Shown one piece after another: positions 3,384 to 47,968 of a stretch of 64,000 nucleotides of DNA (position 1 is its first letter; every line of letters starts with the position of its first letter). The stretch comes from Herbiconiux ginsengi (GTDB taxonomy: Bacteria; Actinomycetota; Actinomycetes; Actinomycetales; Microbacteriaceae), in NCBI RefSeq assembly GCF_900107435.1, contig NZ_FNPZ01000004.1, positions 124,001 to 188,000 of the forward strand. Direction: 5' to 3'. The position numbers and the translations under genes are program-made. The notes beneath the pieces are model-generated. The model made no database searches and was not told the DNA's origin. It was given only the letters and a program-made list of their open reading frames with translations.

Positions 3384-3400
3384 TGTAGTTAGGAGCACCC

Positions 3401-30787: not shown

Positions 30788-30790
30788 TCA

Positions 30791-30852
30791 TCGCGACCCG
30801 TCAAAAAAGGCCCCAAATCCTCAGGTTTAGGGCGTTTTTTGACGGGTCGCGA
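30791..30852. repeat. Long palindrome, family A copy 2 (between convergent lpdA-like and accA genes)
   Basis: Arms 30791-30813 and 30830-30852 (23 nt, one mismatch) around a 16-nt loop. The arm TCGCGACCCGTCAAAAAA differs by one base from that at 3321, and the loops differ. It separates two convergent genes. Copy 1 lies inside a co-directional gene pair, so the element is not tied to one context. Confidence 0.9.
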
Positions 30853-30858
30853 GGAGGG

Positions 30859-32652: not shown

Positions 32653-32799
32653 AATGACCCAGCCTATTGCCGCATCCCATCGCTGATTTGGCATATGCGC
32701 ACAAAAATGGCGCGCGAAGCAGTCGCAGTGTCTACAACGTGGGTGAACTTTGGGTACCCACCGCGACTTCCCGCGATGCGTCGGCCTGCGGCTGACGCG

Positions 32800-32970
32800 T
32801 CGCTCGTTGCCGGCGCCGCCGCTTCTGCGGCGCCGGGCGACATGTTCGCGTGCGGTCGCAAAGCGGCCGCGCGCTCACCCTGGGTCGTCGAGCGCGGCCC
32901 GCGGCTTTCAATCGCGGCGCGCGCTCACTCTGGGTCGTTGAGCGCGGCCCGCGGCTCGCAATCGCGGTGG
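32800..32970. repeat. Intergenic element B copy 1: hairpin plus two tandem 50-bp units
   Basis: Within the gene-free 32653-33010 region. A perfect 10-bp hairpin (32810-32819 with 32827-32836) has loop CGCTTCT. It is followed by GGGCGACATGTTCG and two tandem 50-bp units (32871-32920, 32921-32970) about 90% identical. A homologue lies at 47830-47942. The rest of the spacer (32653-32790) carries the accA promoter and nothing else recognisable. Confidence 0.8.
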
Positions 32971-33010
32971 GACCTCCGGGGACGGGTCAGTGTTCTCCCC
33001 CAGCGCGACC

Positions 33011-33652
33011 TCAGTGCCAGAGGTCGGTCCACTCCACCCCGAAGTCGCGGAGCAGGTCTCGCACGACGGGAAGGGACATGCCGATGACCGCCGAGGGAGC
33101 ACCCGTGATGGTGCGGATGAAGGGCGCGGCCAGGCCGTCGATGGTGAAGGCGCCGGCCACCAGGAGGGGCTCGCCCGAGGCGACGTAGGCGTCGATCTCG
33201 CTCTCGGTGATGTCGTCGGCGAAGGTGAGTTCGGCATGATCCGTTCGCCCGGCCGCACCGCGCGGCGCGCCGCCGCGGTGGTCGATCAGCCAGTGGCCCG
33301 AGTGCAGCACGCCCGTGCGGCCGCGCTGGGCGAGCCACCGCTCCCGGGCCACCGCGGGCTGGTGCGGCTTGCCGTAGGCCACACCCCCGAGTTCGAATGC
33401 CGAGTCGCCGCCGAGCACGAACCCGTCGATCGGCGACCCGTCGGACAGAGTGCCCGCCGCGGCCACCGCCTCCGCCTTCGCCCGCGCGAGGAGCTGCACC
33501 ATCGCATCCGTGGTCAGCGGCCCGTTCGCGGCGACCGCGTCGTCGACCACGGCGTCTTCGTCGACCTCGGAGGGCACGACGACCGGTTCGATGCCGATCT
33601 GACGCAGCAGCGCCAGCCGGGCCGGGGAGGTGGAGGCGAGGTAGAGACGCAC
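33011..33652 (-). CDS. maf: Maf-family nucleotide pyrophosphatase
   Basis: A 213-residue Maf/YhdE-like protein. It starts LYLASTSPARLALLRQIGI, the Maf N-terminal signature, with GGDSAFELGG (catalytic acidic site region), and GAFTIDGLAAPFIRTITG near the end. It hydrolyses non-canonical nucleoside triphosphates and is linked to septum control in Bacillus. The GTG at 33652 is the only good start. maf between acc genes is a known actinobacterial arrangement, here separated from accE by 5 kb of plus-strand genes. Confidence 0.9.
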   Translation of the reverse strand: MRLYLASTSPARLALLRQIGIEPVVVPSEVDEDAVVDDAVAANGPLTTDAMVQLLARAKAEAVAAAGTLSDGSPIDGFVLGGDSAFELGGVAYGKPHQPAVARERWLAQRGRTGVLHSGHWLIDHRGGAPRGAAGRTDHAELTFADDITESEIDAYVASGEPLLVAGAFTIDGLAAPFIRTITGAPSAVIGMSLPVVRDLLRDFGVEWTDLWH

Positions 33653-33683
33653 GGGTCCGCCTTTGCTGTGAAATGCTCGGGGG

Positions 33684-35243
33684 ATGGAAGACCAGAACGA
33701 GCTCGTCGAGCTGGACATCGACAATGTAGCCCACGGCGGGGTCATGGTGGCGCGACTCGACGGCCGCGTGGTCTTCGTCGCCGACGCGATCCCGGGCGAG
33801 CGGGTGCTCGCCCGCATCGCCGACGACAGCAAGTCGTCGTTCTGGCGGGCCGACACCGTCGAGGTGCTGACCGCCTCGCCCGACCGCCGCCCCCATGTCT
33901 GGGCCGCGGCCGCGCTGGAGCGTGCGCCCGAACTGCGGGCCGGTGGGGCGGAGTTCGGCCACATCGCGCTCGAGCGGCAGCGCTCCCTGAAAAGCGAGGT
34001 GCTGACGGATGCGCTCCGCCGCTTCGGCGGCATCACCCGCGCCGTCGAGGTCGAGCCGATCGGAGCCGATGCGGCTCACGATTCGGGACGAGTCGATTCC
34101 GGTGCGGCAGGCGGCACGCGCTGGCGCACGCGGGTGCGGCTGCACGTCGGCCCGGGCGGACGTGTCGGCCCCTACGCCGCGCGCTCGCACACGGTGATCG
34201 CGGTCGACGACCTGCCGCTTGCGACCGAGGCCATCGAGGCCGAGGCGCGGGAGGTCGCGAAGACGCTGCGCGGCGACGCCCAGGGCGCTGCGGCGGTGGA
34301 ATTCGTCGAGACCGCCGACGGCGAGCTGCGCGTCTCGCTCGTGCCGGCCGAGCGCTCGAAGACGGGCGGCCGCGGCCGAGACGGTGCACGAGGAGCCGGC
34401 CGCAACTCCGGGCGCGGTGCTGCCGGCCGAGATCGCCGCGGCGGTGGAGGGGGGAGTTCGGCGGCCTCGGGAGGCCAGGCGCGTCCGGGCGACGGCCGTG
34501 GCCGATCCGGATGGGCTGACGACGGCCTGGCCGACGACGTGCCGTCCGCGACGCGGGCGCGCAATGACCGGGCGGACTCCCGCGCGACCGGGGGCGCCAC
34601 CGCACCGCGCGCATCCGGCGCCCCACGTGCCGATGCCCCCGCCACGATCGTCGAACGCGTCGGCGAGCGCGAGTTCCGTCTGGCGGAGAACGGGTTCTGG
34701 CAGGTTCACCGCGACGCCGCGCGCACCCTCTCCCGAGCGGTGGGCGAACTCACCCGCGAAGACCTCTTCGACCCGCGGGCAGCCAACCACGACCTCTACG
34801 GCGGCGTGGGCCTGCTCGCCGCCGCCATCGGCGACCGCTTCGGCCCCGCCACCCGCATCACGAGCGTCGAGAGCGACGCGACCGCCACCGACCACGCCTC
34901 CGAGAACCTCGCCGAGTGGATCGGCGCCCGCGCCGTGACCGGCCGGGTCGACCGCTATCTCGCCGAACTCGAGAAGGTGGCGAGTTCCGACGACCGCCGA
35001 AGGCTCCAGGCCGCGACCATGGTGATCGACCCGCCGCGCTCCGGCGCGGGCAAAGAGGTGGTCGCCTCCCTCATCCGGCTCGACGTCGCTCAGGTGGTCT
35101 ACGTGGCCTGCGACCCGGTGGCGTTCGCGCGCGACGTCGCCCTCTTCCGCGAGGGCGGCTACGAGCTCGACGCGGTGCGCGCCTACGACCTCTTCCCGCA
35201 CACGCACCACCTCGAGACGATCGGGGTGCTGGTCAAGCCCTGA
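33684..35243 (+). CDS. TRAM-domain RNA (uracil-5-)methyltransferase-like protein with a large Gly/Arg insertion
   Basis: A 519-residue class I SAM methyltransferase of the TrmA/RlmD type. TRAM domain at 1-65 (LDIDNVAHGGVMVARLDGRVVFV), SAM-binding DLYGGVGLLAAAIG, catalytic VVYVACDPVAFARD (Cys) and a C-terminal DLFPHTHHLETIGVL. The Fe-S cysteines found before the core in RlmD are absent: the region reads WAAAALERAPELRAGGAEFGHI. Residues about 222-320 are a Gly/Arg/Ala-rich insertion splitting the methyltransferase domain. It starts 31 nt from the divergent maf. Target RNA unknown. Confidence 0.88.
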   Translation: MEDQNELVELDIDNVAHGGVMVARLDGRVVFVADAIPGERVLARIADDSKSSFWRADTVEVLTASPDRRPHVWAAAALERAPELRAGGAEFGHIALERQRSLKSEVLTDALRRFGGITRAVEVEPIGADAAHDSGRVDSGAAGGTRWRTRVRLHVGPGGRVGPYAARSHTVIAVDDLPLATEAIEAEAREVAKTLRGDAQGAAAVEFVETADGELRVSLVPAERSKTGGRGRDGARGAGRNSGRGAAGRDRRGGGGGSSAASGGQARPGDGRGRSGWADDGLADDVPSATRARNDRADSRATGGATAPRASGAPRADAPATIVERVGEREFRLAENGFWQVHRDAARTLSRAVGELTREDLFDPRAANHDLYGGVGLLAAAIGDRFGPATRITSVESDATATDHASENLAEWIGARAVTGRVDRYLAELEKVASSDDRRRLQAATMVIDPPRSGAGKEVVASLIRLDVAQVVYVACDPVAFARDVALFREGGYELDAVRAYDLFPHTHHLETIGVLVKP

Positions 35244-35308
35244 CGCATCCGTGCGGTGCGGAAAGCCGCCGCCGTAGACTGATGGCCAGTCTTCGCGAGG
35301 GGTGAACG

Positions 35309-36019
35309 GTGCACGACGAGAGCGACGGGGCGGCAGCGGAAGCGGATGCGACGGTGCAGCGCGAGCGTGCCGTGCAGGTCGCGATCGTCGACGACCACGA
35401 ATCGGTGCGCCTCGGCATCCGTGCCGCCTGCCGGGAGGCCGGCTACGAGGTGGTGGCCGCCTGCCCCTCGGTGAGCGAGCTCTGGGTGGCGCTCGCGGGT
35501 CGCAGCTGCGACGTCATCGTGCTCGACCTCAGCCTCGGCGACGACTTCACCGTGACCGAGAACGTGCAGCACGCCCGCTCCATGGGGGCGGCGGTGCTCG
35601 TGCACAGCATCGCCGACCGGGTCGGGCTGGTGCGCGAGGCCCTCGCCGCGGGCGCGGCCGGCGTCATCCCGAAATCAGCGGCCACCAGCACCGTGATGGC
35701 CGCCATCGCCGCGGTCGCGCGCGGCGACGTGCTCAACAATCTCGAGTGGGCGAGCGCCATCGACGCCGACCGCGAGTTCGGCAAGGCGCAGCTGGCCCAG
35801 CGCGAACGCGACGTGCTGCACCTCTACGCCAGCGGGCTCCCGCTCTCGCAGGTGGCGCTGAAGCTCAACATCAAGGTGTCGACCGCGAAGGAGTACCTCG
35901 ACCGCATCCGCGCGAAGTACGTGGAGGTGGGCCGGCCCGCCCGCTCGAAGGTGGAGCTGCTGCGCCGGGCGGTGGAGGACGGCATCCTCGCCCTCGACGA
36001 ACACGGGCATGTCGAATAG
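35309..36019 (+). CDS. LuxR-type two-component response regulator
   Basis: A 236-residue response regulator. Receiver domain with acidic pocket VDDHESVRLGIR, phospho-acceptor D73 (VIVLDLSLGDD) and PKSA lysine. The C-terminal helix-turn-helix is a divergent LuxR type (LAQRERDVLHLYASGLPLSQVALKLNIKVSTAKEYLDRIRAKY). A TAGACT box at about 35275 and GAGGGG before the GTG support the start. The stop overlaps the kinase start by 11 nt. Part of a three-gene plus-strand unit inserted between maf and accE. Confidence 0.9.
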   Translation: MHDESDGAAAEADATVQRERAVQVAIVDDHESVRLGIRAACREAGYEVVAACPSVSELWVALAGRSCDVIVLDLSLGDDFTVTENVQHARSMGAAVLVHSIADRVGLVREALAAGAAGVIPKSAATSTVMAAIAAVARGDVLNNLEWASAIDADREFGKAQLAQRERDVLHLYASGLPLSQVALKLNIKVSTAKEYLDRIRAKYVEVGRPARSKVELLRRAVEDGILALDEHGHVE

Positions 36020-37283
36020 CCCGAGCCCCACGACGCGCGAGGCGCAGGGCTCGCGCGGCGGGCAGTGGCGCGGTGCGGTGCCGGGCCCCCGCCCCCCGCT
36101 CAGCCGGGCGCAGATCGATTCGACCCTGGCGCGCCTCGAGGGACTGTTCGGGTTCATCTTCGCTCTGCTCTCCATCCCGGTGCTCGACGAGTCCGCCGCG
36201 ACTCTCCGACCCGAGTGGGCGTGGGCCGTCACCATCGCTCTGTTCGGATCGATCGGGGTCGCCTTCATCTGTTCGCTCGCCGGCCGCGGGGTGCGGATCA
36301 GCATGGGCGTGGTCGCCTGCGTCTTCGTGGTGACGCTCGTGCTCTGGCCGCTGGCGGTGCGCAGCCCCACCGCGGCCATCGGCACCCAGCCGTGGCTCTG
36401 GTACATCGTGATCGTGGCCATCGGGGCCGCCGGCATCTCCTTCTCCACCTTCTGGGCCGCCGCGTACACCATCGCGGTTCCGGCGATCTTCGCGGTGCTG
36501 CGCGTGCTGCCCGCGGGCGGAGGGGCGTCATGGCAGCTCGCGCTGCTCGACGCGTTCTACGCCCTGCTGCTCGGCTCCTTCGTCGTGATGGTCATCACGA
36601 CCCTGCGCAGCACCGCCAGCCAGGTCGACGAGGCGCAGGGCACCGCCGTGCGCCGATACGCGGATGCGGCCAAGCGGCACGCCGCCGAACAGGAGCGCAC
36701 CCGGGTCGACACCGTGATCCACGACCGCGTGCTCTCCACCCTCCTCGCCGCCTCGCGCAGCCGCACGTCCGACGACCGGAGGCTGGCGGTGCAGATGGCC
36801 CGGCGGGCGCTCGTGGCACTGCAGAGCGCCGACGCGGAATCCGAGGGCTCAGCCGATCTGCCGCTCTCGGTGCTGGTCGAGCGGTCGCGCTCGCTCGCCG
36901 AGACGCTCACCGGTGAGATCGGCTTCTCGGTCGACGGCGACCTCGACGGGGTCGTGCCGGCCCGGGTGATCGAGGGCCTCTACTCGGCGACGGTGCAGGC
37001 GATCGTGAACAGCATCCAGCACGCGGGCGACGGCGCCGCACGCACCATCTCGGTGCACGGGCGCGGTGCGGCGGGCGGACCCGCGGTCACGGTGGTGGTC
37101 GCCGACACGGGCGCCGGCTTCGACGTCGACGCGGTGCCGCCCGATCGCCTCGGCGTGCGCATCTCCATCCGCGAGCGCGTGGATGCGGTGGGCGGCGCCG
37201 CCGACATCCGCTCCGTCGTCGGCGCGGGCACCTCGATCGTGATCAGCTGGCCCGCCGCTCACCAGGGCGAGGAGACCGAATGA
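36009..37283 (+). CDS. Membrane sensor histidine kinase
   Basis: A 424-residue kinase. A cytoplasmic N-terminus (1-45) precedes about six membrane helices (to about 200). The dimerisation region contains H238 in the HisKA_3-like motif VDTVIHDRVLSTLLAAS. A HATPase domain is at the end (ATVQAIVNSIQHAG as N-box, ADTGAGFDVDAVPPDRLGVRISI as G1/G2). It partners the overlapping response regulator and is coupled to the next gene by a 4-nt overlap. The signal is unknown, with cell-envelope stress likely for such small multi-pass sensors. Confidence 0.88.
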   Translation: MSNSPSPTTREAQGSRGGQWRGAVPGPRPPLSRAQIDSTLARLEGLFGFIFALLSIPVLDESAATLRPEWAWAVTIALFGSIGVAFICSLAGRGVRISMGVVACVFVVTLVLWPLAVRSPTAAIGTQPWLWYIVIVAIGAAGISFSTFWAAAYTIAVPAIFAVLRVLPAGGGASWQLALLDAFYALLLGSFVVMVITTLRSTASQVDEAQGTAVRRYADAAKRHAAEQERTRVDTVIHDRVLSTLLAASRSRTSDDRRLAVQMARRALVALQSADAESEGSADLPLSVLVERSRSLAETLTGEIGFSVDGDLDGVVPARVIEGLYSATVQAIVNSIQHAGDGAARTISVHGRGAAGGPAVTVVVADTGAGFDVDAVPPDRLGVRISIRERVDAVGGAADIRSVVGAGTSIVISWPAAHQGEETE

Positions 37284-38305
37284 TCTCGATGCCCCGCTTC
37301 CTGTTGGTCGGACTCGCCGCCATCTTCTCCGGGTATCACCTCGTGCTCGGGGTGTACTCGCTCGACGTGCCGCCCACGCCGTGGCCGTCGGTCGTGGCGA
37401 TGGCACTCTACGGGGCGGCGACGGCTTTGAGCCTCGCGCCCTCGCGCTCGACCCGGATGCCCCTCCCATTGGCGGCGGTCAACCTCGCCGTCTGCACGGT
37501 CGGCCTCATCCTCGTGCTCACGCAGCTCGATCCGCGCGTCGACAACGGCTACGCCACCTGGATCATCGGCGCCGTCGGCACCCTGATGACCATCACCGTC
37601 GTGCGCCAACGGCCGTGGTTCGCGTGGGCCGGCATCGCGATCATGATCCTCACCGTGCTGCTCTGGTCGAGTGACATCTTCGAGCTGCCCTCCCTCGGGG
37701 TGATCGGCGGCCCGATCTGGGTGGGTGTTGCGCACGCCACGACGGTCGCGATCGTGCGGGCGTCGCGCGACGCCCGGCTGTTCGAGCAGGCCGAGCAGCG
37801 CGCAGCCGAGTGGCACGCCCAGGAAGAGGCCGAGTTCTTCGAGCGCCGGGTGCGGCTCGGGCAGATGAACCGGATGGTGGCGCCGATGCTGCGCCGCATC
37901 GTGACGAGCGACGGGCTGCTGAGCGAGGAGGATCGGCAGGAGTGCCTGCACCTCGAGGCGGCGATGCGCGACGAGATCCGGGGCCGCCGCCTGCTCGACG
38001 ACGCCGTGCGCCGGGAGGCGCTGGCGGCACGGCGGCGCGGCGTCGAGGTGACCCTGCTCGACGACGGCGGGATCGACGACCTCGACCGGGCGGAGCACGC
38101 CCGGGTGACCGCCGTGATCGCGAAGGAGATCGGGGAGACCACGGCCGACCGCGTCGTGGTGCGCACCGCGCATCACGACGAGGAGGTGGCGGTGACCATC
38201 GTGGGGCTCCGCGCGGCGGCACCCGCCGAGGAGGCCGAGCTCGACCTGTGGCTCGAGGTGCCACGGAGCGGCATCCCGGCAGAAGAAGAACCGGGGGCCG
38301 AATGA
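37280..38305 (+). CDS. Membrane protein resembling a histidine kinase that lacks catalytic boxes
   Basis: A 341-residue protein with about five or six membrane helices (to residue 160), then a coiled stretch (RDARLFEQAEQRAAEWHAQEE) and a cytoplasmic domain whose pattern recalls a DHp helix pair (RLGQMNRMVAPMLRRIV) followed by a HATPase-like beta sheet (RVVVRTAHHDEEVAVTIVGL). The usual phospho-His, N-box and G-box residues cannot be found. ATG overlaps the true kinase by 4 nt. Likely an accessory or pseudo-kinase of the same signalling unit. Its stop codon lies inside a hairpin. Confidence 0.75.
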   Translation: MISMPRFLLVGLAAIFSGYHLVLGVYSLDVPPTPWPSVVAMALYGAATALSLAPSRSTRMPLPLAAVNLAVCTVGLILVLTQLDPRVDNGYATWIIGAVGTLMTITVVRQRPWFAWAGIAIMILTVLLWSSDIFELPSLGVIGGPIWVGVAHATTVAIVRASRDARLFEQAEQRAAEWHAQEEAEFFERRVRLGQMNRMVAPMLRRIVTSDGLLSEEDRQECLHLEAAMRDEIRGRRLLDDAVRREALAARRRGVEVTLLDDGGIDDLDRAEHARVTAVIAKEIGETTADRVVVRTAHHDEEVAVTIVGLRAAAPAEEAELDLWLEVPRSGIPAEEEPGAE

Positions 38306-38362
38306 ATTCGACCCCCGGAAGGCTTTCGAGTCAGGACGACAACCCGAATATCGCCCTGACTC
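38291..38362. terminator. Two hairpins at the end of the two-component unit
   Basis: CCGGGGG (38291-38297) pairs with CCCCCGG (38312-38318) across the stop codon, and GAGTCAGG (38328-38335) with CCTGACTC (38355-38362). The following stretch to 38526 has no gene except for a TATCGT box (38442-38447) placed 6 nt before a GTG that opens only a six-codon frame ending at 38474. Confidence 0.5.
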
Positions 38363-38526
38363 GCCCCCGGAATGCAAGCCCGCTTACCCTAGTCGACCTG
38401 CATCCGGCGATGTAACTCAAAGAGAGACACCTAGCACTGTCTATCGTGGTCGCGTGAGCGCCATCGCGCAGTAGGCCGTTCGGTGGACATTTTTCCGGAT
38501 GCGTTCAGCGAGCATCCAGGAATCGG

Positions 38527-38772
38527 TCAGCGGGGGTTGCCGCTGAACCCGCGCCACGCCGAGGGCCCGGGCTGCAGGGGACCGCGCATCGACCGCTGGC
38601 TGCGCTCCCAGGCCGACGGCCCGATCTGCACGTCGTCGTGCAACTGGGCCAGCTCCTCCGCCACGGCCGAATCCACGACAGCTGTCACGGCCGCCAGCTC
38701 CTCGGGGGCGAGACGCGTCGTGAGAACCTGGAGCGCCGGTTCGCCGGTGGATGTCGTAGCCTCGTCGTTCAC
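38527..38772 (-). CDS. accE: Acyl-CoA carboxylase epsilon subunit
   Basis: An 81-residue AccE-type small subunit. Such proteins stabilise the alpha-beta acyl-CoA carboxylase complexes of actinobacteria. The N-terminal half LQVLTTRLAPEELAAVTAVV matches the family EELAAL pattern, and the end carries two Trp motifs, SAWERSQRSM and the typical final SAWRGFSGNPR. The GTG start lies exactly 7 nt from TAGCCT on the minus strand. It is detached from accD (about 5.6 kb upstream) and from maf (about 4.9 kb downstream). Short and easily overlooked. Confidence 0.88.
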   Translation of the reverse strand: MNDEATTSTGEPALQVLTTRLAPEELAAVTAVVDSAVAEELAQLHDDVQIGPSAWERSQRSMRGPLQPGPSAWRGFSGNPR

Positions 38773-38779
38773 ACGGACG

Positions 38780-38785
38780 AGGCTA
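38780..38785 (-). promoter_or_regulatory. Leaderless -10 box for accE
   Basis: TAGCCT on the minus strand, 7 nt before the GTG at 38772. TACATT on the plus strand, 3 nt further on, could be the -10 of the divergent MprF-like gene, so the two promoters nearly overlap in the 48-nt spacer. Confidence 0.55.
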
Positions 38786-38820
38786 CATTAGAACCCTGGC
38801 ATCAGAGGGGAATCGTCGGC

Positions 38821-41331
38821 ATGAGGAAGACCATCACGTTCGCGGGGAGATACCTCGCCACCATCCCTCTCAGTATCAGCTTCGCCGCGCTGATCCTGGT
38901 GACCGCACTCGTCACCGGCACCTTCTTCGGGCCGGCATCGGCCGACACCCAAGCCGCCTGGGCCGCCGGCGTCACCACCGTGGTCGACATGGGCAGCTGG
39001 TGGACGATCTTCACGGCCCTGTTCATCCCGTGGGACCCGTTCCAGCTGGTGGGCGACATCCTGGCCGCCCTCATCCTGCTCGGGGTCGCCGAACGCCTCC
39101 TCGGCCGCCGGCGCCTGGTGCCGGTGTTCCTCGCCACCGGCCTCATCGGCGTCGGCCTCGGCGTGCTGGTGCAGTGGGTCGGATCACTCGCCGGCGAATG
39201 GTGGGCCGACGGCACGAGCTTCGACCTCACGGTCGACCCGCTCACCCCGATCGTGGGCTCGCTGCTGGCGGCGAGCGCGTTCATGGGGCCGCTCTGGCGC
39301 CGTCGGGTGAGGCTCGTCGCCTTCGGCTTCCTCATCATGTTCGCCCTCTACGACGGCGACACCTCCACCGTCTACCGGTTGATCGCCGCCATCGCGGGCC
39401 TTGTGATCGGGCACTTCCTGAGCGTGCGGCGGCGGCGCGGCATGGTGTTCCTCCGCAGCTCCTTCGGCGAGGTGCGGGTGCTCATCGCGGCCGTGGTGCT
39501 GATCACGGCGGTGGGCCCGCTGGTGAGTCTGCTGAACCCGAATGGAACCGGCGCGTTCGGGCTCGCCGGCAGCCTCTACGGCGACATCTTCCCGAGCGCG
39601 GCCGACATCAAGACCTTCTGCGCGACCGCGACCACGGGGGTCTGCGACGACTTCCGCCGGCTCGGAGCGCTCGGCGGCGTCGGCCCCGTGGTGCAGACCT
39701 TCGTGCCGCTGGCCCTGTTGCTGGTCTCGGCCTGGGGCCTGCGTCGCGGGCGCCGGTTCGCGCTGTGGCTCGGCATCGTCACGAACCTCGCGATGATCGC
39801 GCTGGCCCTGGTTTTCCTCGGGCTCGTCTCCTCGCTGACCTCGATCGTCGACGACACCACGCCGCTCGAGCCGATCGACGTCGGCGAGTACGTCGTCTGG
39901 GGCGGGTCGACGGTCGCCGTGCCCCTCGCGGTCGTCATCCTGCTCTTCGTCACGCGCAAACGGTTCGCGCTGCGGGCGCCGCGGGAGGCTTTCATCCGCT
40001 TCCTCGTGATCGTGGTCGGCGCCTTCCTCGCCCTCGCGCTGATCAACGTGGTTGTGGGTGCGTTCACGCTCGACGACTTCACGCCGCCGGGCACGAGCAT
40101 CGTCGAACTCGTGCTCGACCTGCCGCGGCGCTTCCTGCCGGTGACGCTGGTCGGCATCACGGGCGACGTGCTGATTCCCGCGGCCGGGGTCACGCTGTTC
40201 CTCTTCCAATGGATCGGGCCGGTCTTCTGGCTGATCTTCACGATCGCGTCATTCCAGCTGCTCACCGCCACGGAGCACTCGGTGACGGTGGGCGACCACC
40301 AGCGCATCCGGGCCCTGCTCCGCCGAGGTGGAGGCGGCACGCTCGGCTGGATGACGACGTGGCCCGGCAACCTCTACTGGTTCACCGACGACATGGATGC
40401 CTTCGTCGCCTACCGCGTGATCAACGGCGTCGCCATCACCATGTCCGATCCGGTCTGCCGTGAGGGAGCCGAGAAGGAGACCATCGAAGGATTCGCCGCG
40501 TTCTGCGACGCGAACAGCTGGATGCCGGTGTTCTACAGCGTGCACGACCAGTACCTGCCGGTCTTCGAGGGGATGGGCTGGCAGTACATGTCGGTCGGGG
40601 AGGAGACGCTGATGCATCCGCAGTCGCTCGAGATGACGGGCAAGGCGTGGCAGAACGTGCGCTCCTCGCTCAACAAGGGCGTTCGCGAAGGCATGACGAC
40701 GGTCTGGACCACCTACGACGAACTCTCGCGCACCAAGGTGGCGCAGATCAACGCGATCTCCGAGGCATGGGTCTCGGAGAAGGAGCTGCCCGAGATGGGC
40801 TTCACCCTCGGAGCCCTCGAGGAGATCAAAGACCCGGATGTCGCGCTCATGCTGGCGGTCGACGCCGAGGGGCGCATCGCCGCGGTCACGAGCTGGCTGC
40901 CGATGTGCCGCGACGGCGTCGCCGTGGGCTACACGCTCGACTTCATGCGCAGGGCCGACGGTTCGATGCCGGGCGTGATGGAGTACCTGATCGCCTCGTC
41001 GGCGCTGCACATGAAGGAGTTGGGCGTGGAAGTGCTGAGCCTCTCCGGCGCCCCGCTGGCCCAGCCGCCTGTGCCGAAGGGCGAGGAGCCGCCCGCGCCG
41101 ACGGTGATGACCGAGCTCTCCGACTTCCTCGCGCGCACCCTCGAGCCGGCCTACGGCTTCTCGTCGCTGTTCAAGTTCAAGGCGAAGTTCAACCCCAGCT
41201 ACTCCACGATCTACATGGCCTATCCCGACCCGCTCGCGTTGCCGACGATCGGCGGGGCGATCGGGCGGGCCTACTTGCCGTCGATGTCGCCGAAGGAGGC
41301 CGTGTCGTTGGTGCGCACCCTGGTGCGCTGA
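38821..41331 (+). CDS. MprF-like membrane protein with DUF2156 aminoacyl-transferase domain
   Basis: An 836-residue protein. The first about 520 residues hold many membrane helices. The first five or so resemble a rhomboid-like bundle (WWTIFTALFIPWDPFQLVGDILAALILLG). The C-terminal DUF2156/GNAT-fold domain (about 540-830) has WFTDDMDAFVAYRV, MSDPVCREGAEKETIEGFAAFC, KAWQNVRSSLNKGVREGM and LSLSGAPLA, all found in phosphatidylglycerol lysyltransferases. It probably adds an amino acid to phosphatidylglycerol and flips the product, altering surface charge. GAGGGGA precedes the ATG. Amino-acid specificity cannot be read. Confidence 0.85.
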   Translation: MRKTITFAGRYLATIPLSISFAALILVTALVTGTFFGPASADTQAAWAAGVTTVVDMGSWWTIFTALFIPWDPFQLVGDILAALILLGVAERLLGRRRLVPVFLATGLIGVGLGVLVQWVGSLAGEWWADGTSFDLTVDPLTPIVGSLLAASAFMGPLWRRRVRLVAFGFLIMFALYDGDTSTVYRLIAAIAGLVIGHFLSVRRRRGMVFLRSSFGEVRVLIAAVVLITAVGPLVSLLNPNGTGAFGLAGSLYGDIFPSAADIKTFCATATTGVCDDFRRLGALGGVGPVVQTFVPLALLLVSAWGLRRGRRFALWLGIVTNLAMIALALVFLGLVSSLTSIVDDTTPLEPIDVGEYVVWGGSTVAVPLAVVILLFVTRKRFALRAPREAFIRFLVIVVGAFLALALINVVVGAFTLDDFTPPGTSIVELVLDLPRRFLPVTLVGITGDVLIPAAGVTLFLFQWIGPVFWLIFTIASFQLLTATEHSVTVGDHQRIRALLRRGGGGTLGWMTTWPGNLYWFTDDMDAFVAYRVINGVAITMSDPVCREGAEKETIEGFAAFCDANSWMPVFYSVHDQYLPVFEGMGWQYMSVGEETLMHPQSLEMTGKAWQNVRSSLNKGVREGMTTVWTTYDELSRTKVAQINAISEAWVSEKELPEMGFTLGALEEIKDPDVALMLAVDAEGRIAAVTSWLPMCRDGVAVGYTLDFMRRADGSMPGVMEYLIASSALHMKELGVEVLSLSGAPLAQPPVPKGEEPPAPTVMTELSDFLARTLEPAYGFSSLFKFKAKFNPSYSTIYMAYPDPLALPTIGGAIGRAYLPSMSPKEAVSLVRTLVR

Positions 41332-41375
41332 GCCCCCGGTAGGGTTTTCTCTTGGGCATCGATCGAGAGGAACCC

Positions 41376-42341
41376 ATGACCTGGCTAGTCACCGGCGGAG
41401 CAGGCTACATCGGATCGCACGTCGTCGCGGCGCTGCGCGAGGCGGACATGAGCTGCGTCGTGCTCGACGATCTCTCGAGCGGCCACGCCGAGTTCGTGCC
41501 GGCCGACGTGCCCTTCGTGCGCGGCAGCATCCTCGACGCCGAGCTGGTGCGCAGCGCGCTGGCCGAGCACCAGGTGACGGGGGTCATCCACATCGCCGGG
41601 TTCAAGTACGCGGGCGTCTCGGTGCAGCAGCCCCTGCACACCTACGAGCAGAACGTGACGGGCATGGCCGTGCTGCTGAAGGAGATGCAGGATGCGGGCA
41701 TCGACCGCGTGGTCTTCTCCTCCAGCGCCGCGGTCTACGGCACGCCGCCCACCGACATCGTCACCGAGGACACCCCGAAGAATCCGGAGAGCCCCTACGG
41801 CGAGTCGAAGCTGATCGGCGAATGGCTGCTACGCGACCAGGGCGTCGCCGCGGGCCTCCGCCACACCTCTCTCCGCTACTTCAACGTCGTCGGCTCCGGC
41901 AGCATCACCCTGTACGACACCAGCCCGCACAACCTCTTCCCCCTGGTCTTCGAGGCGCTGCTCGCGGGTCGCACCCCGAAGATCAACGGCACTGACTACC
42001 CCACGCCCGACGGCACCTGCGTGCGCGACTACATCCACGTCGCCGACCTCGCCCTGGCGCACGTCGAGGCCGCCCGAAAGCTCGACGAGGGTGCCCTCCT
42101 TCTTCCTGCTTACAACCTCGGCTCAGGCGACGGCGTCTCGGTGCGTCAGATCATGACGGCGGTAGCGGCTGCAACGGGCATCCCCTTCGAGCCGGAGTCG
42201 GCCCCGCGCCGCCCCGGTGACCCCGCCCGTATCGTCGCCTCGGGCGAACTCGCCGCCCGCGATCTCGGCTGGGCGATGCGCCACACCCTCGACCAGATGG
42301 TGACGTCGGCATGGCAAGCTCGCGAGGCTGCCGCGGCCTGA
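41376..42341 (+). CDS. galE: UDP-glucose 4-epimerase
   Basis: A 321-residue short-chain dehydrogenase of the extended type. NAD motif VTGGAGYIGSHV at the start, catalytic YGESK (Tyr-Lys) in SPYGESKLIGEW, LRYFNVVGSG, and VRDYIHVADLALAHV. It interconverts UDP-glucose and UDP-galactose for envelope glycans. ATG at 41376 with GAGAGGA 6 nt upstream and TAGGGT further up. It ends near the first of the two palindromes that bracket the M1 peptidase. Confidence 0.93.
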   Translation: MTWLVTGGAGYIGSHVVAALREADMSCVVLDDLSSGHAEFVPADVPFVRGSILDAELVRSALAEHQVTGVIHIAGFKYAGVSVQQPLHTYEQNVTGMAVLLKEMQDAGIDRVVFSSSAAVYGTPPTDIVTEDTPKNPESPYGESKLIGEWLLRDQGVAAGLRHTSLRYFNVVGSGSITLYDTSPHNLFPLVFEALLAGRTPKINGTDYPTPDGTCVRDYIHVADLALAHVEAARKLDEGALLLPAYNLGSGDGVSVRQIMTAVAAATGIPFEPESAPRRPGDPARIVASGELAARDLGWAMRHTLDQMVTSAWQAREAAAA

Positions 42342-42357
42342 TCGTGCGCTGACGGTT

Positions 42358-42442
42358 GAACGAGGGGTGGGTATTCGCACTCCCGCCTAGGGGTTGAGCG
42401 AAGCTCAAAGGCGGCGGGAGCACGAATACCCACCCCTCGTTC
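42358..42442. repeat. 85-bp palindromic element C, copy 1
   Basis: Outer arms 42358-42377 and 42423-42442 pair perfectly over 20 bp (starting GAACGAGGGGTGGG). After two mismatches, CTCCCGCC/GGCGGGAG pair, and TTGAGC/GCTCAA close on a GAA loop. It sits between galE and the convergent M1 peptidase gene. Copy 2 at 44272-44358 has the same core in the opposite direction. Confidence 0.92.
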
Positions 42443-42451
42443 GCCCTCGCC

Positions 42452-44176
42452 CTAGGGGGCTTCGGTGGGCTTGCCCGTCGAGTAGATCCAGGTGTCGAAG
42501 AGGGCCGTCAGGTCTTGGCCGGAGACCTGCTGCGCGTAGGCGACGAACTGGTCGGTGCTGACGTTGCCGCCCGCGTTCTCGGCGGCCCAGCCCTGGATGA
42601 TCGCGAAAAACGCGTCGTCTCCGACCGTGTTGCGGAGGGCCTGAAGGGTCATGGCACCTCGGTAGTAGGTGGCGTCGGCGAAGATGTTCGCCGAACCCGG
42701 ATCGGCGACCTCGACGGTCCAGAACTCGTTGCCGGCCGGGATGCCGTCGTAAATGGTCTGGGCCTGCACCGCCGGGGTGTCCCCACCGTCGTGCTCAGCC
42801 CACAACCACTCGGCGTAGGTGGCGAAGCCCTCGTTCAGCCAGATGTCGCTCCAGCGATGCATGGCCAGGCTGTCGCCGTACCACTGGTGGGCCAGCTCGT
42901 GCACGACGACACTGGGGTCGTCGACGCTCGTGAAGGCCCAGGCGCCGTAGATCGGGCGGGTCTGGTTCTCCAGGGCGAACTGCAAGTCGGGCTGGTCGGC
43001 GGCGATGCCGCCGGCCTCGGTGAAGGGGTAGGGGCCGAAGACGTTGCTGAGGAAGGCGATGACCTCCGGCTCCGACCCGAAGATCGCTGCAGCCGCTTCT
43101 CCGGCGCTGGGGCCGGTGGGGTCGGTGTCATCGGCGGGGATGTCGTAGAGGTCCTCGTCGATCGCGTTCCAGTAGTCGATGCCGTCCTGGCTGAAGGAGG
43201 TGAGTTCGTAGTCGCCGATCGAGGCGGTGGCGAGGTAGGGCGCCATCGGCTGGTCGGAGCGCCAGGTCCATTCGGTGTTCGCGCCGACCGGGGTCTGTGA
43301 CACCAGGCGGCCGTTGCCGACGACGGTGAGGCCGGACGGCGCCGACATCGTGACGGTGAGGGTGGCCTTGTCGGCCGGATGATCGCTGGCCGGGAACCAC
43401 GTGGCTGCGACTCGGGGCTGGCCGACGATGAGGGCACCCCCGTCTGCCTGATGGAAGACGCCTGAGATGCCGTACGCGTCGTCGATGGTGGTCGGCACAC
43501 CGCCGTATTCCACCACCGTGGTGAACGGCAGACCGCTCGGGATGCCGGAGGGCGGGGTCACCGTGACCTCGGTGCGCGGCGGAGTCGCCTCGCCGTCGCC
43601 GCTGCCGGGCTCCAAGGGCTGGCCGGTGACGATGCTGATCGGGGTGCTCGCCGACGTCCAGGTGGCGGGCGCGCCGTCGACCGCGACCGACGAGACGGCG
43701 AGGCCGTCGAGGTCGAGGTTGAAGGCCGAGAGGTTCTGGGTGGCGGTCGCCGTGATGGTGGCGGTGCCGGTGATCGAGCCCGTCAAGGGATCGTAGGCGA
43801 GATCGAGGTCGTAGTCGGCCACGTCGTAGCCGCCGTTGCCGTCGAGCGGGAAGTAGGGGTCGCCGATGCCCACGGCGCCGGCCGTGTAGAGCGTCGCGGG
43901 CGGCACGACGGAATCGGTCCCACCACCTCCGCCGCCATTCTCGGGAGCTGAGGCCACGCATCCGGAGCCCGCGTTCGCGAACGACGGAGCGGGCGCACCC
44001 GTCACCACGAGACCCGCCACGAGCACCGGCACCACCCCGAGCAACGCGGCGCGCCGCTTGCCCTTGCGCGTGAGCACGGCGGCGGTACCCGCTCCGATTC
44101 CGATGAGGGCGATGGCAGCGGCCGGCAGCAGAATCCCGACCTCCATTCCGGTGGCGGCGAGCTCGCAGGTCGGCAC
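42452..44176 (-). CDS. M1-family metallopeptidase with an N-terminal sorting-signal-like segment
   Basis: A 574-residue extracellular M1 (aminopeptidase N-like) peptidase. The zinc motif HELAHQWYG with downstream NEGFATYAE, and ALENQT as the GAMEN-like substrate loop, are complete. The N-terminus is odd: residues 5-42 read ELAATG, a hydrophobic stretch, then RKGKRR, the layout of a C-terminal sortase sorting signal, followed by a second hydrophobic segment (44-60) and a likely cleavage site near SFANAG. AAGGAG lies 8 nt before the GTG at 44176, so this start is well supported. The gene is bracketed by inverted copies of palindrome C. Confidence 0.9.
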   Translation of the reverse strand: MPTCELAATGMEVGILLPAAAIALIGIGAGTAAVLTRKGKRRAALLGVVPVLVAGLVVTGAPAPSFANAGSGCVASAPENGGGGGGTDSVVPPATLYTAGAVGIGDPYFPLDGNGGYDVADYDLDLAYDPLTGSITGTATITATATQNLSAFNLDLDGLAVSSVAVDGAPATWTSASTPISIVTGQPLEPGSGDGEATPPRTEVTVTPPSGIPSGLPFTTVVEYGGVPTTIDDAYGISGVFHQADGGALIVGQPRVAATWFPASDHPADKATLTVTMSAPSGLTVVGNGRLVSQTPVGANTEWTWRSDQPMAPYLATASIGDYELTSFSQDGIDYWNAIDEDLYDIPADDTDPTGPSAGEAAAAIFGSEPEVIAFLSNVFGPYPFTEAGGIAADQPDLQFALENQTRPIYGAWAFTSVDDPSVVVHELAHQWYGDSLAMHRWSDIWLNEGFATYAEWLWAEHDGGDTPAVQAQTIYDGIPAGNEFWTVEVADPGSANIFADATYYRGAMTLQALRNTVGDDAFFAIIQGWAAENAGGNVSTDQFVAYAQQVSGQDLTALFDTWIYSTGKPTEAP

Positions 44177-44271
44177 AGTGGTCTCCTTGGGCTTTGGGGC
44201 GGTGGGGAGACTCTATCGGCGCATCCGACAGCACCGCTACGCCAGGCGAGCGCCGACATGCCCGAAACGAC

Positions 44272-44358
44272 GAATGAGGGGGTGGATATTCGTGCTCCCG
44301 CCGCCTTTGAGCTCCGCTCAACCCTTAGGCGGGAGTGCGAATATCCACCCCCTCATTC
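44272..44358. repeat. 87-bp palindromic element C, copy 2 (inverted)
   Basis: Outer arms (44272-44292 with 44338-44358, starting GAATGAGGGGGTGG) pair perfectly over 21 bp, then CTCCCGCC and TTGAGC pair as in copy 1. Relative to copy 1 the asymmetric core (GCC TTT on one side, TAAGGG on the other) is reversed. It separates the M1 peptidase promoter region from the accD 3' end. The remaining spacer 44177-44271 holds the M1 promoter (TAGAGT) and nothing else. Confidence 0.92.
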
Positions 44359-44367
44359 ACCCCCAGA

Positions 44368-45969
44368 TCAGAGCGGAATGTTCCCATGCTTCTTGGGCGG
44401 CAGCGAGGCCCGCTTGGTCTTCAGGGCCCGCAGCGCCTTCGTGACCGCGACCCGGGTGGCCGCCGGCTCGATCACCCCGTCGAGCTCGCCGCGCTCCGCC
44501 GCGAGGAAGGGCGACGCGACGTTGTAGGTGTACTCGTTCGCGAGTTTCGTGCGCACGGCCGCGACGTCCTCGCCCGCTTCCTCGGCCCGCTTGATCTCGC
44601 CCCGGTACAGGATGTTCACCGCGCCTTGCCCGCCCATCACGGCGATCTCCGCGGTCGGCCAGGCCAGGTTCATGTCGGCGCCCAGCTGCTTCGAGCCCAT
44701 CACGATGTACGCCCCGCCGTAGGCCTTGCGCAGGATGACGGTGACGAGCGGCACGGTGGCCTCGGCGTAGGCGTAGAGCAACTTCGCGCCGCGGCGGATG
44801 ACACCGGTCCACTCCTGGTCGGTGCCCGGCAGGTATCCGGGCACGTCGACGAGGGTGAGGATCGGGATGGAGAACGCGTCGCAGAACCGCACGAACCGGG
44901 CGGCCTTCTCACCGGCCTCGATGTTGAGGGTGCCGGCCATGGCGCTCGGCTGGTTGGCCACGATGCCGATCGAGCGGCCTTCGATGCGCGCGAAGCCCAC
45001 CACGATGTTGGGGGCGTAGAGCGGCTGGGTCTCGAGGAACTCGCCGTCGTCGACCAGGTGCTCGATCACGGTGTGCACGTCGTAGGGCTGGTTCGGGCTG
45101 TCGGGCACGATCGTGTTCAACTTGCGGTCGGCATCCGTGATCTCGAGCTCGACGTTCGAGTCGTAGACCGGCAGCTCGGCCAGGTTGTTGTCGGGCAGGT
45201 AGCTGAGCAGGGCGCGGGCGTAGTCGAGCGCGTCGTCCTCATCGCTGGCGAGGAAGTGCGAGACGCCCGAGACCTTGTTGTGCGTGAGCGCGCCGCCGAG
45301 CTCCTCCATACCGACGTCTTCGCCGGTGACGGTCTTGATGACATCCGGTCCGGTGACGAACATCTGGCTGGTCTTGTCGACCATGATGACGAAGTCGGTG
45401 AGGGCGGGGGAGTAGACCGCACCACCGGCTGCCGGCCCCATGATGATCGAGATCTGCGGGATGACGCCCGAGGCGGCCGTGTTGCGACGGAAGATCTCGC
45501 CGTACTTGCCGAGCGCCACGACACCCTCCTGGATGCGCGCACCGCCCGAGTCGAGCATGCCGATGATTGGCACGCCGGTCTTGAGCGCGAGATCCATCAC
45601 CTTGATGATCTTCTCGCCGGCCACCTCGCCGAGCGAGCCGCCGAAGATGGTGAAGTCCTGCGCATAGACGGCGACCTGGCGGCCGTGGATGGTGCCGGTT
45701 CCGGTGACCACCGCGTCGCCGTAGGGCCGCGACTTCTCCATGCCGAAGGCGTGGGTGCGGTGCCGCACGAACTCGTCGATCTCCACGAAGGAGCCGTGGT
45801 CGAGCAACTGCTCGATGCGCTCGCGGGCGGTCTTCTTGCCGCGCTTGTGCTGCTTCTCGATGGCAGCTTCGCCCGATGCCGTCACGGCCTCGTGATAGCG
45901 GTTCTTGAGGTCGGCCAGCTTGCCCGCCGTGGTGTACATGTCGGGCTCGGTCGTCAGATCGTCGGTCAC
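44368..45969 (-). CDS. accD: Acyl-CoA carboxylase beta subunit (carboxyltransferase)
   Basis: A 533-residue propionyl/acetyl-CoA carboxyltransferase of the PccB/AccD5 type. [17 protein letters not shown] near the start, [25 protein letters not shown] (first oxyanion hole), [12 protein letters not shown], and the second half with [13 protein letters not shown] and [19 protein letters not shown], ending in the conserved KHGNIPL. It transfers CO2 from biotin on AccA to acyl-CoA. GTG at 45969 lies 7 nt from TAGAGT on the minus strand, which decides this start over the GTG at 45978. Divergent from birA, whose product biotinylates AccA. Confidence 0.95.
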
Positions 45970-45976
45970 GCCGTTC

Positions 45977-45982
45977 ACTCTA
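45977..45982 (-). promoter_or_regulatory. Leaderless -10 box for accD
   Basis: TAGAGT on the minus strand, 7 nt before the GTG at 45969. The 139-nt spacer to birA holds promoters for both directions. Confidence 0.6.
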
Positions 45983-46096
45983 CCGGCCAGCCCTCGGCGC
46001 TTCCCGTTGACGAATGCGACAAATGCGGGCAGGGCTCTTGTGCGTGCCTGACCCGCCGCAGGTGCGCCGTCCAGGCCACGGCCGCCCGTCGTCCGG

Positions 46097-46102
46097 TAGC
46101 TT
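46097..46102 (+). promoter_or_regulatory. Leaderless -10 box for birA
   Basis: TAGCTT, 6 nt before the ATG at 46109. Confidence 0.6.
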
Positions 46103-46108
46103 GGCCGC

Positions 46109-46990
46109 ATGGAAAAGCCCGCGCCGCCGCCTGCTCTGCCGCTCTCCCGCGCCGTCGCCCCGCGGCTGGAATGGATGTCGCAGGCCGGGTCCACGAACGA
46201 CGTGCTGGTGATGGCGGCCACCGGGCCCTCGGCGGCGGACTGGCCGGATCTCGCGGTGATCGCGACCGACAACCAGGTGCACGGGCGTGGGCGCCTCGGC
46301 CGGGTCTGGACAGCGCCCCCCGGCCGCACTCTCGCGGTCTCGGTGCTGTTGCGGCCGCGGGGCGCATCCGGCGATCCGGTGCCGCTCGAGCGCTACGGGA
46401 TGCTGCCGCTGCTGGCCGGGGTGGCGATGGCCAGGGTGGTCGGAGGACTGGTCGAGACGGCGCGCATCCACTCGGCCCATCGGTTGGCCAAGGTGGGAGT
46501 GAGCCTGAAGTGGCCCAACGACGTGCTGATCGGCGAGCGGAAAGTCTGCGGCATCCTCGGCGAGATGCTGCCGGGAGGGCAGGGGCTCGTGATCGGAGCG
46601 GGCGTGAACCTCACCCTCAGCGCGGAGGAGCTGCCGACGCCCACCTCGACGTCTCTGCTGGTGGCGGGGGTGGAGCATCCGTCGCCCGACGCCGTGCTCG
46701 CCGGCTACCTCCGCGACCTCGGTACGCTCTACGAACGGTGGTGCGCCGCCGACGGCGACGGCGTGGCGAGCGGGTTGCTCGACGAGGTGGCGCGGGTCAC
46801 CGGCACGCTCGGCCGGGCCGTGCGGGTGGAACTGCCGGGCGGGGAGTTCCGCACAGGGGTCGCCCGGGGCGTCGACGAGACCGGGCGACTGATCGTCGAC
46901 GACTCCGACGGGGGCGCGCCGTTGGTGGTCTCGGCGGGCGATGTGACGCATCTCCGGCACGACGACCAAGGAAACGGGGAAACCCGGTAA
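46109..46990 (+). CDS. birA: Biotin-[acetyl-CoA-carboxylase] ligase
   Basis: A 293-residue biotin protein ligase without an N-terminal DNA-binding domain. Motifs are [28 protein letters not shown] (the GRGRxGR biotinyl-AMP loop), [18 protein letters not shown] and VIGAGVNL, with a C-terminal SH3-like domain ([11 protein letters not shown]...[10 protein letters not shown]). It activates biotin and attaches it to K562 of AccA. Its place beside accD makes functional sense. The stop lies 12 nt before the PH-domain gene. Confidence 0.93.
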
Positions 46991-47002
46991 AGAATGGGGC
47001 GT

Positions 47003-47740
47003 ATGGCCAGGCGCACCGACGAGACGGACTCCTTCACCTCCGTCGTGCGCGGGCCGAGCCCGGTTTCGGCGCCGGGCTCGGCGCCGGGCGCGTCGCAGCC
47101 GCCACGGGCCGGGAGGCGCGGCGCCAAGCCGGGACAAGGTGACGGCACCTACCCGCCCGGGGCGGGCTCTTCGCGCAGCGATCCCTCCGCGACCGAGCGT
47201 TTCGGCTGGGGCGCGGCGAACGCCGGCCTGGATGCCGCCGGATACACCACCTCGGTCGAACCACTGCGCCCCACGGCCCCCGAGACCATACTGCTGCGCA
47301 CCCGTCCGCACGCGCGCCGGCTCACCATCCCGGTTCTCGTGCTCTTCGCCACCGTCACCGCCTTCGGCTACTTCGGCGGCCGTTTCGCTGAGGAGTGGCA
47401 GAACTGGGGTGCTCTCGGCTTGGCCTCCGCCCTCGTCTTCTTCGTGACCCTGCTGCCCTTCCTGGCCTGGCTCGGCCACCGCTACACGGTCACCTCGCGT
47501 CGCATCATCGCGCGTCGCGGCATCCTCGTGCGCCAGCGACAGGATGTCTACCTCGCCCGGGTGACGGATGTGCGCCTCCGCCGCACCCCCCTCCAGGCCG
47601 CATTCGCGTCGGGCGACGTGCGGGTCATCGCCGGCCCCGACCTCACCCTCGTGCTCCACGACGTGCCCTCGGCCCGTCTCGTGGCCGACCTCCTCGGCGA
47701 TCTCACGGAGCACCCCACCCCGGCGTCGCACCTCCCCTGA
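47003..47740 (+). CDS. Bacterial PH-domain (bPH2) membrane protein
   Basis: A 245-residue protein. A polar tail (1-85, Ala/Pro/Gly-rich) precedes two membrane helices (about 105-155) and a bPH2 domain (YTVTSRRIIARRGILVRQRQDVYLARVTDVRLRRTPLQ). Function in this family is unknown, with a scaffold or membrane-stress role suspected. Two starts are possible: ATG at 46994 or at 47003. The box AAGAAT/TAAAGAAT ends 7 nt before 47003, so 47003 is preferred. birA-PH-purK-purE is a recurrent order in this bacterial group. Confidence 0.85.
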   Translation: MARRTDETDSFTSVVRGPSPVSAPGSAPGASQPPRAGRRGAKPGQGDGTYPPGAGSSRSDPSATERFGWGAANAGLDAAGYTTSVEPLRPTAPETILLRTRPHARRLTIPVLVLFATVTAFGYFGGRFAEEWQNWGALGLASALVFFVTLLPFLAWLGHRYTVTSRRIIARRGILVRQRQDVYLARVTDVRLRRTPLQAAFASGDVRVIAGPDLTLVLHDVPSARLVADLLGDLTEHPTPASHLP

Positions 47741-47829
47741 CTCCGGGTTCCGTCTGCGTTGGGCTGCGAAACGGGGGTACCGATCCGCCCCTTCCGGGCT
47801 CGCCCGGCCTTCGGCTGGGCGGGCCCTTA

Positions 47830-47942
47830 TTGCTCGCGCCGCCGCTTCTGCGGCGCGAGGCGACATGTTCGGGTGAGGTCGCTGACGCGGCCTCGCCCTC
47901 ACCCTGGGTTGGCTGAGCGCGGCCTGCAGCCTGCGATCTCGA
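47830..47942. repeat. Intergenic element B copy 2: conserved hairpin
   Basis: Within the gene-free 47741-47956 spacer. A perfect 10-bp hairpin (47833-47842 with 47850-47859) has the same CGCTTCT loop as copy 1, but two stem pairs are changed in a compensatory way. It is followed by GGCGACATGTTCGGGTG and one copy of the 50-bp unit (CTCACCCTGGGT...GAGCGCGGCC). A further G/C hairpin (GGGCTCGCCC/GGCTGGGCGGGCCC, 47797-47825) precedes it. Confidence 0.8.
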
Positions 47943-47956
47943 TAAGGAGCCATGGG

Positions 47957-47962
47957 TAAGCT
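47957..47962 (+). promoter_or_regulatory. Leaderless -10 box for purK
   Basis: TAAGCT, 6 nt before the GTG at 47969. No Shine-Dalgarno sequence precedes that GTG; an AAGGAG at 47944 lies before a different ATG that opens a six-codon frame. Confidence 0.55.
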
Positions 47963-47968
47963 GAAATC

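Follow-up and report, generated by a model that had tools for sequence, protein, structure and literature searches.

A genus-restricted family of structured intergenic repeats from Herbiconiux ginsengi, with a proposed role at mRNA 3' ends

What is the hairpin-bearing sequence found between genes at 32.8 kb, and again at 47.8 kb, in a 64,000-nt stretch of the Herbiconiux ginsengi genome (contig NZ_FNPZ01000004.1, positions 124,001 to 188,000; hereafter the window)? An earlier note on this DNA had read the two copies as a dispersed, non-coding element that preserves its structure, and many further copies in the same and related genomes bear this out. They form a real family of structured repeats, restricted to the genus, while its function is what we infer. 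The reading we prefer, at a probability of roughly 0.55, is a family of short structured repeats, specific to the genus, intergenic and non-autonomous, which is of the BOX, ERIC and CIR kind and has a role in the 3' untranslated region (3'-UTR) of mRNAs.

The element and its copies

The element consists, in order, of hairpin 1 (HP1), hairpin 2 (HP2), a linker (GCGACATGT), hairpin 3 (HP3) and a tail (CACCCTGGGTCGTCGAG). HP2, linker, HP3 and tail make up a core of about 95 nt and are better conserved than HP1, a hypervariable hairpin that usually lies 5' of the core. Outside the stems, the conserved motifs in the genus-wide alignment (A2, below) are the linker and, in the tail, CCTGGGTCGTCGAG. 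The features of the two window copies, with the basis of each, are as follows.

32773-32803, + strand: copy 1, HP1, 14 bp, 3-nt loop (fold of 32771-32899; covarying HP1 column pairs in 28 own copies)
32810-32836, + strand: copy 1, HP2, 10 bp, loop CGCTTCT, the hairpin of the earlier note (sequence; covariation in both alignments)
32837-32845, + strand: copy 1, linker GCGACATGT (alignment A2, columns at least 90% conserved)
32848-32874, + strand: copy 1, HP3 (covariation, fold)
32876-32917, + strand: copy 1, conserved tail, beginning CACCCTGGGTCGTCGAG (alignments A1 and A2)
32918-32967, + strand: copy 1, second tandem tail unit, 92% identical to 32868-32917 (window self-comparison)
32807-32899, + strand: copy 1, match to covariance model R2, 99.1 bits, E 8.2e-18
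47796-47826, + strand: copy 2, HP1, 14 bp, loop TTC, fitting the intrinsic-terminator pattern and downstream of a bPH_2 gene (fold, terminator pattern scan)
47833-47859, + strand: copy 2, HP2, the hairpin of the earlier note (sequence; covariation in both alignments)
47860-47868, + strand: copy 2, linker GCGACATGT (alignment A2)
47871-47898, + strand: copy 2, HP3 (covariation, fold)
47900-47942, + strand: copy 2, conserved tail (sequence, alignment A1)
47830-47923, + strand: copy 2, match to covariance model R2, 98.1 bits, E 1.3e-17

HP2 is as it had been described: a perfect 10-bp stem with the same CGCTTCT loop in both copies, differing between them at two adjacent pairs that are each compensated on the other arm. 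The shared string GGCGACATGTTCG and the tandem doubling of a 50-bp unit in copy 1 were likewise found as claimed. The similarity also continues to the left of what had been noted, as a 108-nt match of 73% identity (32752-32859 with 47775-47882) that includes the wholly compensated HP1. The 14-mer GCCGCTTCTGCGGC occurs exactly only at the two copies within the window; with up to two mismatches it has 9 window matches against 2.67 expected, a number reached in 0 of 100 shuffles.

When copy 2 was searched by blastn against the genome it comes from, 55 matches reached E ≤ 0.022, copies 1 and 2 included. Two covariance models were built, R1 from 28 aligned own copies and R2 genus-wide. With 150 of 12600 first-look candidates scored, R1 has at least 94 matches in the own genome at E ≤ 10 and at least 70 at E ≤ 1e-3, partial tandem units among them. 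Under stricter filters, with at most 56 candidates scored per genome, it matches 14 of the 15 other genomes of the genus (none in G001, two in G009, one in G013) and 0 of 44 genomes of other genera. Such a search had been suggested in the earlier note, and its proviso, that there might be no further copies, did not hold. R2, applied to 398 genomes of the family with 10 candidates scored in each, matches 9 of the 11 sampled genus members, the own genome included. Elsewhere in the family 2 of 387 genomes match it weakly, at 36.2 and 39.8 bits; these matches were set aside, as HP2 can be read there but linker, HP3 and tail are not clear. Genus-wide there are 162 distinct good units, those with identical core letters being counted once.

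The HP2 core has a wider range. Of the 387 family genomes that lie outside the genus, 16 contain a 19-mer pattern for it, with 1-6 copies each, while the reversed pattern, used as a control, is found in 3 of 398 genomes with one copy each; since it exceeds this control outside the genus, HP2 may predate the full element. Isolated HP2 hairpins with both loop types are seen at low copy in other genera (L239, L240), and at L239 they stand in tandem after what appears by eye to be a tRNA gene. The plasmids and phages searched hold no match to the element. Viral contigs were considered as a reservoir and rejected, none of 14 pattern matches being convincing with R2 (best E 0.0084, 24.8 bits). Rfam has 0 matches in the window, and on six related loci it gave four matches up to E 5 (best E 1.3), none reaching the gathering threshold. 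Neither a description of the element nor its three motif strings was found in the accessible part of the literature, a scope that leaves aside subscription papers and preprints.

Covariation was measured in two sets. In the own genome, 28 of 31 copies were used, excluding L019, L028 and L030 (one insertion, two partial copies), and their three helices comprise 34 pairs, in which 99.7% of the 952 cells are paired. Both-side changes occur in 108 cells against 41.8 after shuffling, the covariation score is 0.319 against 0.100, and 12 pairs have both-side changes against 9.5, a value reached in 3 of 500 shuffles; when the partner is slid by 1-3 columns, pairing falls to 34.5-51.8%. For alignment A2, the 162 units were reduced to 139 (extended-apex HP3 forms and duplicates removed), 136 (thinned) and finally 134 (without L019 and L102). 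Its 26 pairs of HP2 and HP3 are paired in 90.8% of 3469 cells, so that the stems are maintained in the additional copies too; 16 pairs have both-side changes, in 401 cells against 141.2 shuffled. On all five measures 0 of 500 shuffles reach the observed values, and slid versions are at most 49.4% paired. Most unpaired cells come from two inner HP3 pairs, formed in only 30 of 134 copies, and from the outer pairs of HP2, which are displaced by one position where the stem is shorter. The 7-nt loop of HP2 is of two types, CGCNYCT or TCCCTGC, with closing pair C-G or G-C (69 and 64 copies). The column pairs of HP1 covary in the own-copy alignment, and between copies its stems are replaced wholesale; in one G002 copy (L186), HP1 is built around the end of the neighbouring gene.

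Folding strand, placement and a proposed 3'-end role

The + strand of copy 1 is predicted to fold at -86.9 kcal/mol (z -4.07) and its complement at -71.9 (z -1.68); for copy 2 the values are -85.2 (z -5.30) and -72.0 (z -3.99), and shuffled + strands have mean folds of -65 to -71 kcal/mol. All 134 copies retain one U.G wobble pair of HP3, and 107 of 134 retain another. Alignment A1 holds 109 G.U pairs against 1 A.C, and A2 holds 256 against 46. Together these figures favour the sense strand as the one that folds, without settling the matter.

Genes were called with a simple codon-usage caller, a caveat for all placement figures. In the own genome 70 of 71 listed matches were used (the 71st has E 0.00116), giving 61 sites, of which 35 are convergent, 15 tandem sense, 8 tandem antisense and 3 divergent. 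Genus-wide, with 157 of the 162 units, the respective numbers are 95, 37, 21 and 4, while the 27 window gaps of at least 60 nt divide into 7 convergent, 13 tandem and 7 divergent. The convergent excess (Fisher p 0.0013) and divergent deficit (p 0.00015) of the 157 units relative to the window gaps are rough values, because the units are mutually dependent and the sample is uneven. Type II copies downstream of a co-directional gene have exactly 33 nt between stop codon and HP2 in 10 of 60 cases; TAGCTGC precedes HP1 in 34 of 71 type II units, its TAG being the stop codon of the gene in several, and the left end GGTACC/GGTGCC recurs in 36 of 91 type I units. Copy 2 is flanked by a bPH_2 gene and purK and shares the strand of both. 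It ends about 15 nt before a TAAGCT (window 47955-47971), which may be the -10 element of a leaderless purK; in G002 and G012, that spot is taken by another arm of the family.

A function at the 3' end is proposed because the placement, the folding strand and the fixed unpaired motifs fit it, and by analogy with ERIC, which offers a precedent, the element probably acts on mRNA stability or termination. It would be transcribed with the upstream gene, as part of the 3'-UTR, and fold there into an array of hairpins, which could shield the message from 3'-to-5' decay, help to end transcription between convergent genes, or both. Selection, template switching and gene conversion would jointly keep its stems perfect, and the element would have spread through machinery acting in trans.

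Several results weigh against this proposal, besides the rough p values and the simple gene caller. The element is dispensable, since one member of the genus has no match and others have one and two. Copy 1 lies antisense to both of its neighbours, a Maf gene and a biotin carboxylase gene on the - strand, as do 21 of the 157 units to theirs, and in tandem settings the sense excess is weak (37 to 21, p 0.048). In the 28 own copies, the number of further pair types (19 against 17.4 shuffled, reached in 81 of 500) is not beyond the shuffles. Of the 256 G.U pairs in A2, 241 lie within the two conserved wobble columns, so that elsewhere A.C mismatches (46) outnumber G.U pairs (15); for this reason the case for RNA structure is good but not proven. 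Lastly, species sharing a site often differ in subfamily, a pattern that mobility or conversion would explain as readily as function.

Site turnover and rival explanations

Comparison with the sister species G002 shows how readily sites change. Counterparts exist there for 24 of 28 own flanks; an automatic motif test found 13 of the 24 occupied and reading added two (indices 19 and 24), so that 15 carry the element and 9 do not. At five occupied sites (5, 11, 13, 21 and 24) the G002 copy has the opposite orientation, that at site 21 being a remnant. Site 24 holds the same copy inverted in place, as 107 of 113 letters are identical to the reverse complement and the inverted alignment scores 196, the highest score among 23 other own copies being 144; the G008 copy at this site (L057) is oriented as in the own genome (G000). 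Upstream of purK, differing copies are present in G000, G002, G004, G008 and G012, and reading of 330 nt recognised none in the other 11 genomes of the genus; at L105 (G010), a different palindrome occupies the position of the G000 element. Upstream of accA, the biotin carboxylase gene, the site is occupied only in G000 and G002, with no element in 13 of 14 other genomes (420 nt, by reading), while in G007 it is interrupted by a contig end. When neighbour genes were clustered, 46 clusters had element sites in two or more genomes; merging of left and right genes leaves 30 groups, of which 21 reach beyond the pairs G000/G002 and G005/G014. The clustering took units with up to three mismatches, two of them chance coding matches (L164, L043), and with a stricter cut 46 of 47 clusters stand. 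At shared sites, distant species were often seen by reading to have different subfamilies.

Such turnover is what purely selfish, non-autonomous mobile DNA would leave, and this is the rival that survives best, although we think it rather unlikely. The hairpins would be features by which a transposase recognises single-stranded or cruciform DNA, as in miniature inverted-repeat transposable elements (MITEs) or REP sequences, and the 3' placement would be that of least harm. The unoccupied G002 sites, the accA site filled in two genomes, the scarcity of divergent (promoter) sites and the differing subfamilies all agree with it. However, terminal repeats with clean target duplications were not seen at the unoccupied G002 sites read by eye, and neither plasmids nor phages match. 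For the recurring left ends (TAGCTGC; GGTACC/GGTGCC) no matched right end was seen. The conserved U.G pairs and linkers would also be superfluous. Nor does a mover gene track the element among Y1/RAYT, TnpB and reverse transcriptase, the DDE transposases not having been searched. Y1 is absent from the own genome and from every element-bearing genome of the genus, its single match among the 16 genus genomes (G001:C11:24558-24878, L163) being in a genome without the element. TnpB is found in 0 of 16, which sets aside a TnpB/IS605 guide RNA. The reverse transcriptase domain RVT_1 was not found in 13 of 15 bearing genomes, G000 and G002 included; it has matches in the other two, G007 and G009, and in G001, the genome without the element. 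A retroelement RNA (group II intron or retron) was rejected on this count.

Two larger mobile units were also considered. A transposase between distant inverted copies was rejected, since three such intervals hold ordinary genes (MFS, DUF58, epimerase); two others (L065, L067) were listed for open reading frames only. A composite A-centre-B' palindrome fails as the unit, an opposed linker lying within 210 nt of the tail in only 9 of 68 own matches, and where two copies do face each other, they may be the separate 3' copies of two convergent genes.

The inversion at site 24 and the wholesale changes of HP1, including the one around a gene end at L186, suggest a mutational by-product, in which template switching and copy conversion would maintain perfect hairpins in GC-rich intergenic DNA, their structure being under no selection. 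According to one source (PMC8794818), template switching between hairpin arms can create or mend stems in RNA hairpins, both arms in one step, and another (PMC8604942) describes arm homogenisation and spacer inversion in yeast, the inverted spacers being short. In-place inversion, whole-stem replacement and homogenised, species-specific subfamilies would fit template switching or conversion, and because template switching can create and mend stems, perfect stems alone do not demonstrate selection. The claim of the earlier note that compensatory change marks a selected RNA thus stands in part: the structure is kept, the + strand is favoured and two U.G pairs are retained, but compensatory change is insufficient proof by itself, since template switching or gene conversion can alter the two arms as well. 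As a full account the by-product is improbable. It leaves the conserved unpaired linker and tail unexplained, as well as the dispersal and the two kept wobbles, which template correction would turn into Watson-Crick pairs.

Plain intrinsic terminators, with HP1 ending transcription and the remainder as decoration, are very improbable. HP1 of copy 2 fits the pattern and one G015 copy (L200) has a T-run after HP1, but at least 5 T in the 10 nt after HP1 were found in 0 of 162 units by a scan that is unreliable, missing the L200 run visible by eye. Moreover, some copies begin at HP2 without HP1 (L030, L057, L172), and the parts beyond HP1 are the more conserved. Chance hairpins or a coding remnant are refuted: high GC content makes hairpins common, as the folds of shuffled strands attest, but it does not account for the copy number, the excess of GCCGCTTCTGCGGC, the covariation in both alignments or the genus-wide range.

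The structured repeat with a 3'-UTR role remains our preferred reading. A bolder and doubtful extension would make it a new class of functional RNA belonging to one actinobacterial genus. It would be a 3'-UTR module of three hairpins, whose fixed single-stranded motifs (GCGACATGT, CCTGGGTCGTCGAG and the two HP2 loops) are read by a dedicated protein. A mover able to recognise the folded strand would have placed it behind dozens of genes, and template switching would rewrite stems and orientation in place while the fold persists. What is gained in any case is a densely covarying, genus-restricted repeat family with 162 distinct natural variants. It offers a natural test of how much covariation in bacterial hairpins is owed to RNA selection and how much to template switching and copy conversion. 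The test is practical because several species carry copies at the same sites, in one case with the copy inverted there. Should the 3'-end role be true, dozens of genes per genome would be under one post-transcriptional 3' module.

Neighbouring palindromes and known systems

Other palindromes occur in the same genomes. A second family is represented in the window by 42358-42442 and 44272-44358, whose inverted 73-nt arms are 95% complementary; each has its own 30-31-nt hairpin arms, and together they flank an M1-peptidase gene (42452-44176). One exact pattern for it had no match in 269 loci, and a similar-looking hairpin is found next to the element at G000:C4:323499 and at the corresponding G002 site. 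A third family, with GGCGTGTYTTGGCGA, was seen at 9 of 269 loci, some overlapping (L007, L008, L010, L011, L022, L062, L072, L165 and L242), and stands beside the element in several. The terminator-like repeat TTTGGGGCGTTTTTTGGCGGGTCGCGA is present at window positions 3357-3385, 30789-30817 and 30826-30855.

Among known systems, ANTAR-target RNAs are tandem hairpins in actinobacterial mRNAs, with hexanucleotide loops that have a fixed A and G; they were set aside on loop length, the HP2 loops being of 7 nt. The ERIC element is palindromic and BOX elements are modular.

REP, BIME and REPIN sequences are described (PMC2817692) as high-copy extragenic palindromes, often in alternating orientation. 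The element resembles them in copy number and extragenic position, but has two to three hairpins per unit where REP is a short single palindrome, and the genomes of the genus that bear it gave no Y1/RAYT match. RUP has terminal repeats and TA targets and is tied to IS630 (PMC2229807). Like RUP and other MITEs, which are intergenic repeats of about 100 bp thought to be mobilised in trans, the element is short and intergenic, but a pair of the terminal-repeat and IS630 type is not shown for it.

CIR, ERIC and BOX represent the general kind to which the element belongs. According to the same source (PMC2229807), CIR of Caulobacter, among the alpha-proteobacteria, is associated with the GANTC methyltransferase, is about 110 bp long, lies outside genes and is modelled as an RNA of two stem-loop arms and a linker, while ERIC is 127 bp long and co-transcribed, with an orientation-dependent effect on mRNA stability. 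The present element is likewise short and intergenic, with hairpins joined by a linker, but CIR carries GANTC in its loop, which 0 of 134 A2 rows hold, and the element is actinobacterial, usually with three hairpins and a conserved tail. Its separate hairpins in series distinguish it from ERIC, with which its sequence was compared through Rfam only. Like ERIC/IRU and BOX, it is a dispersed intergenic repeat with RNA structure, and it shares the general features of such repeats: dispersal, intergenic position and a conserved secondary structure.

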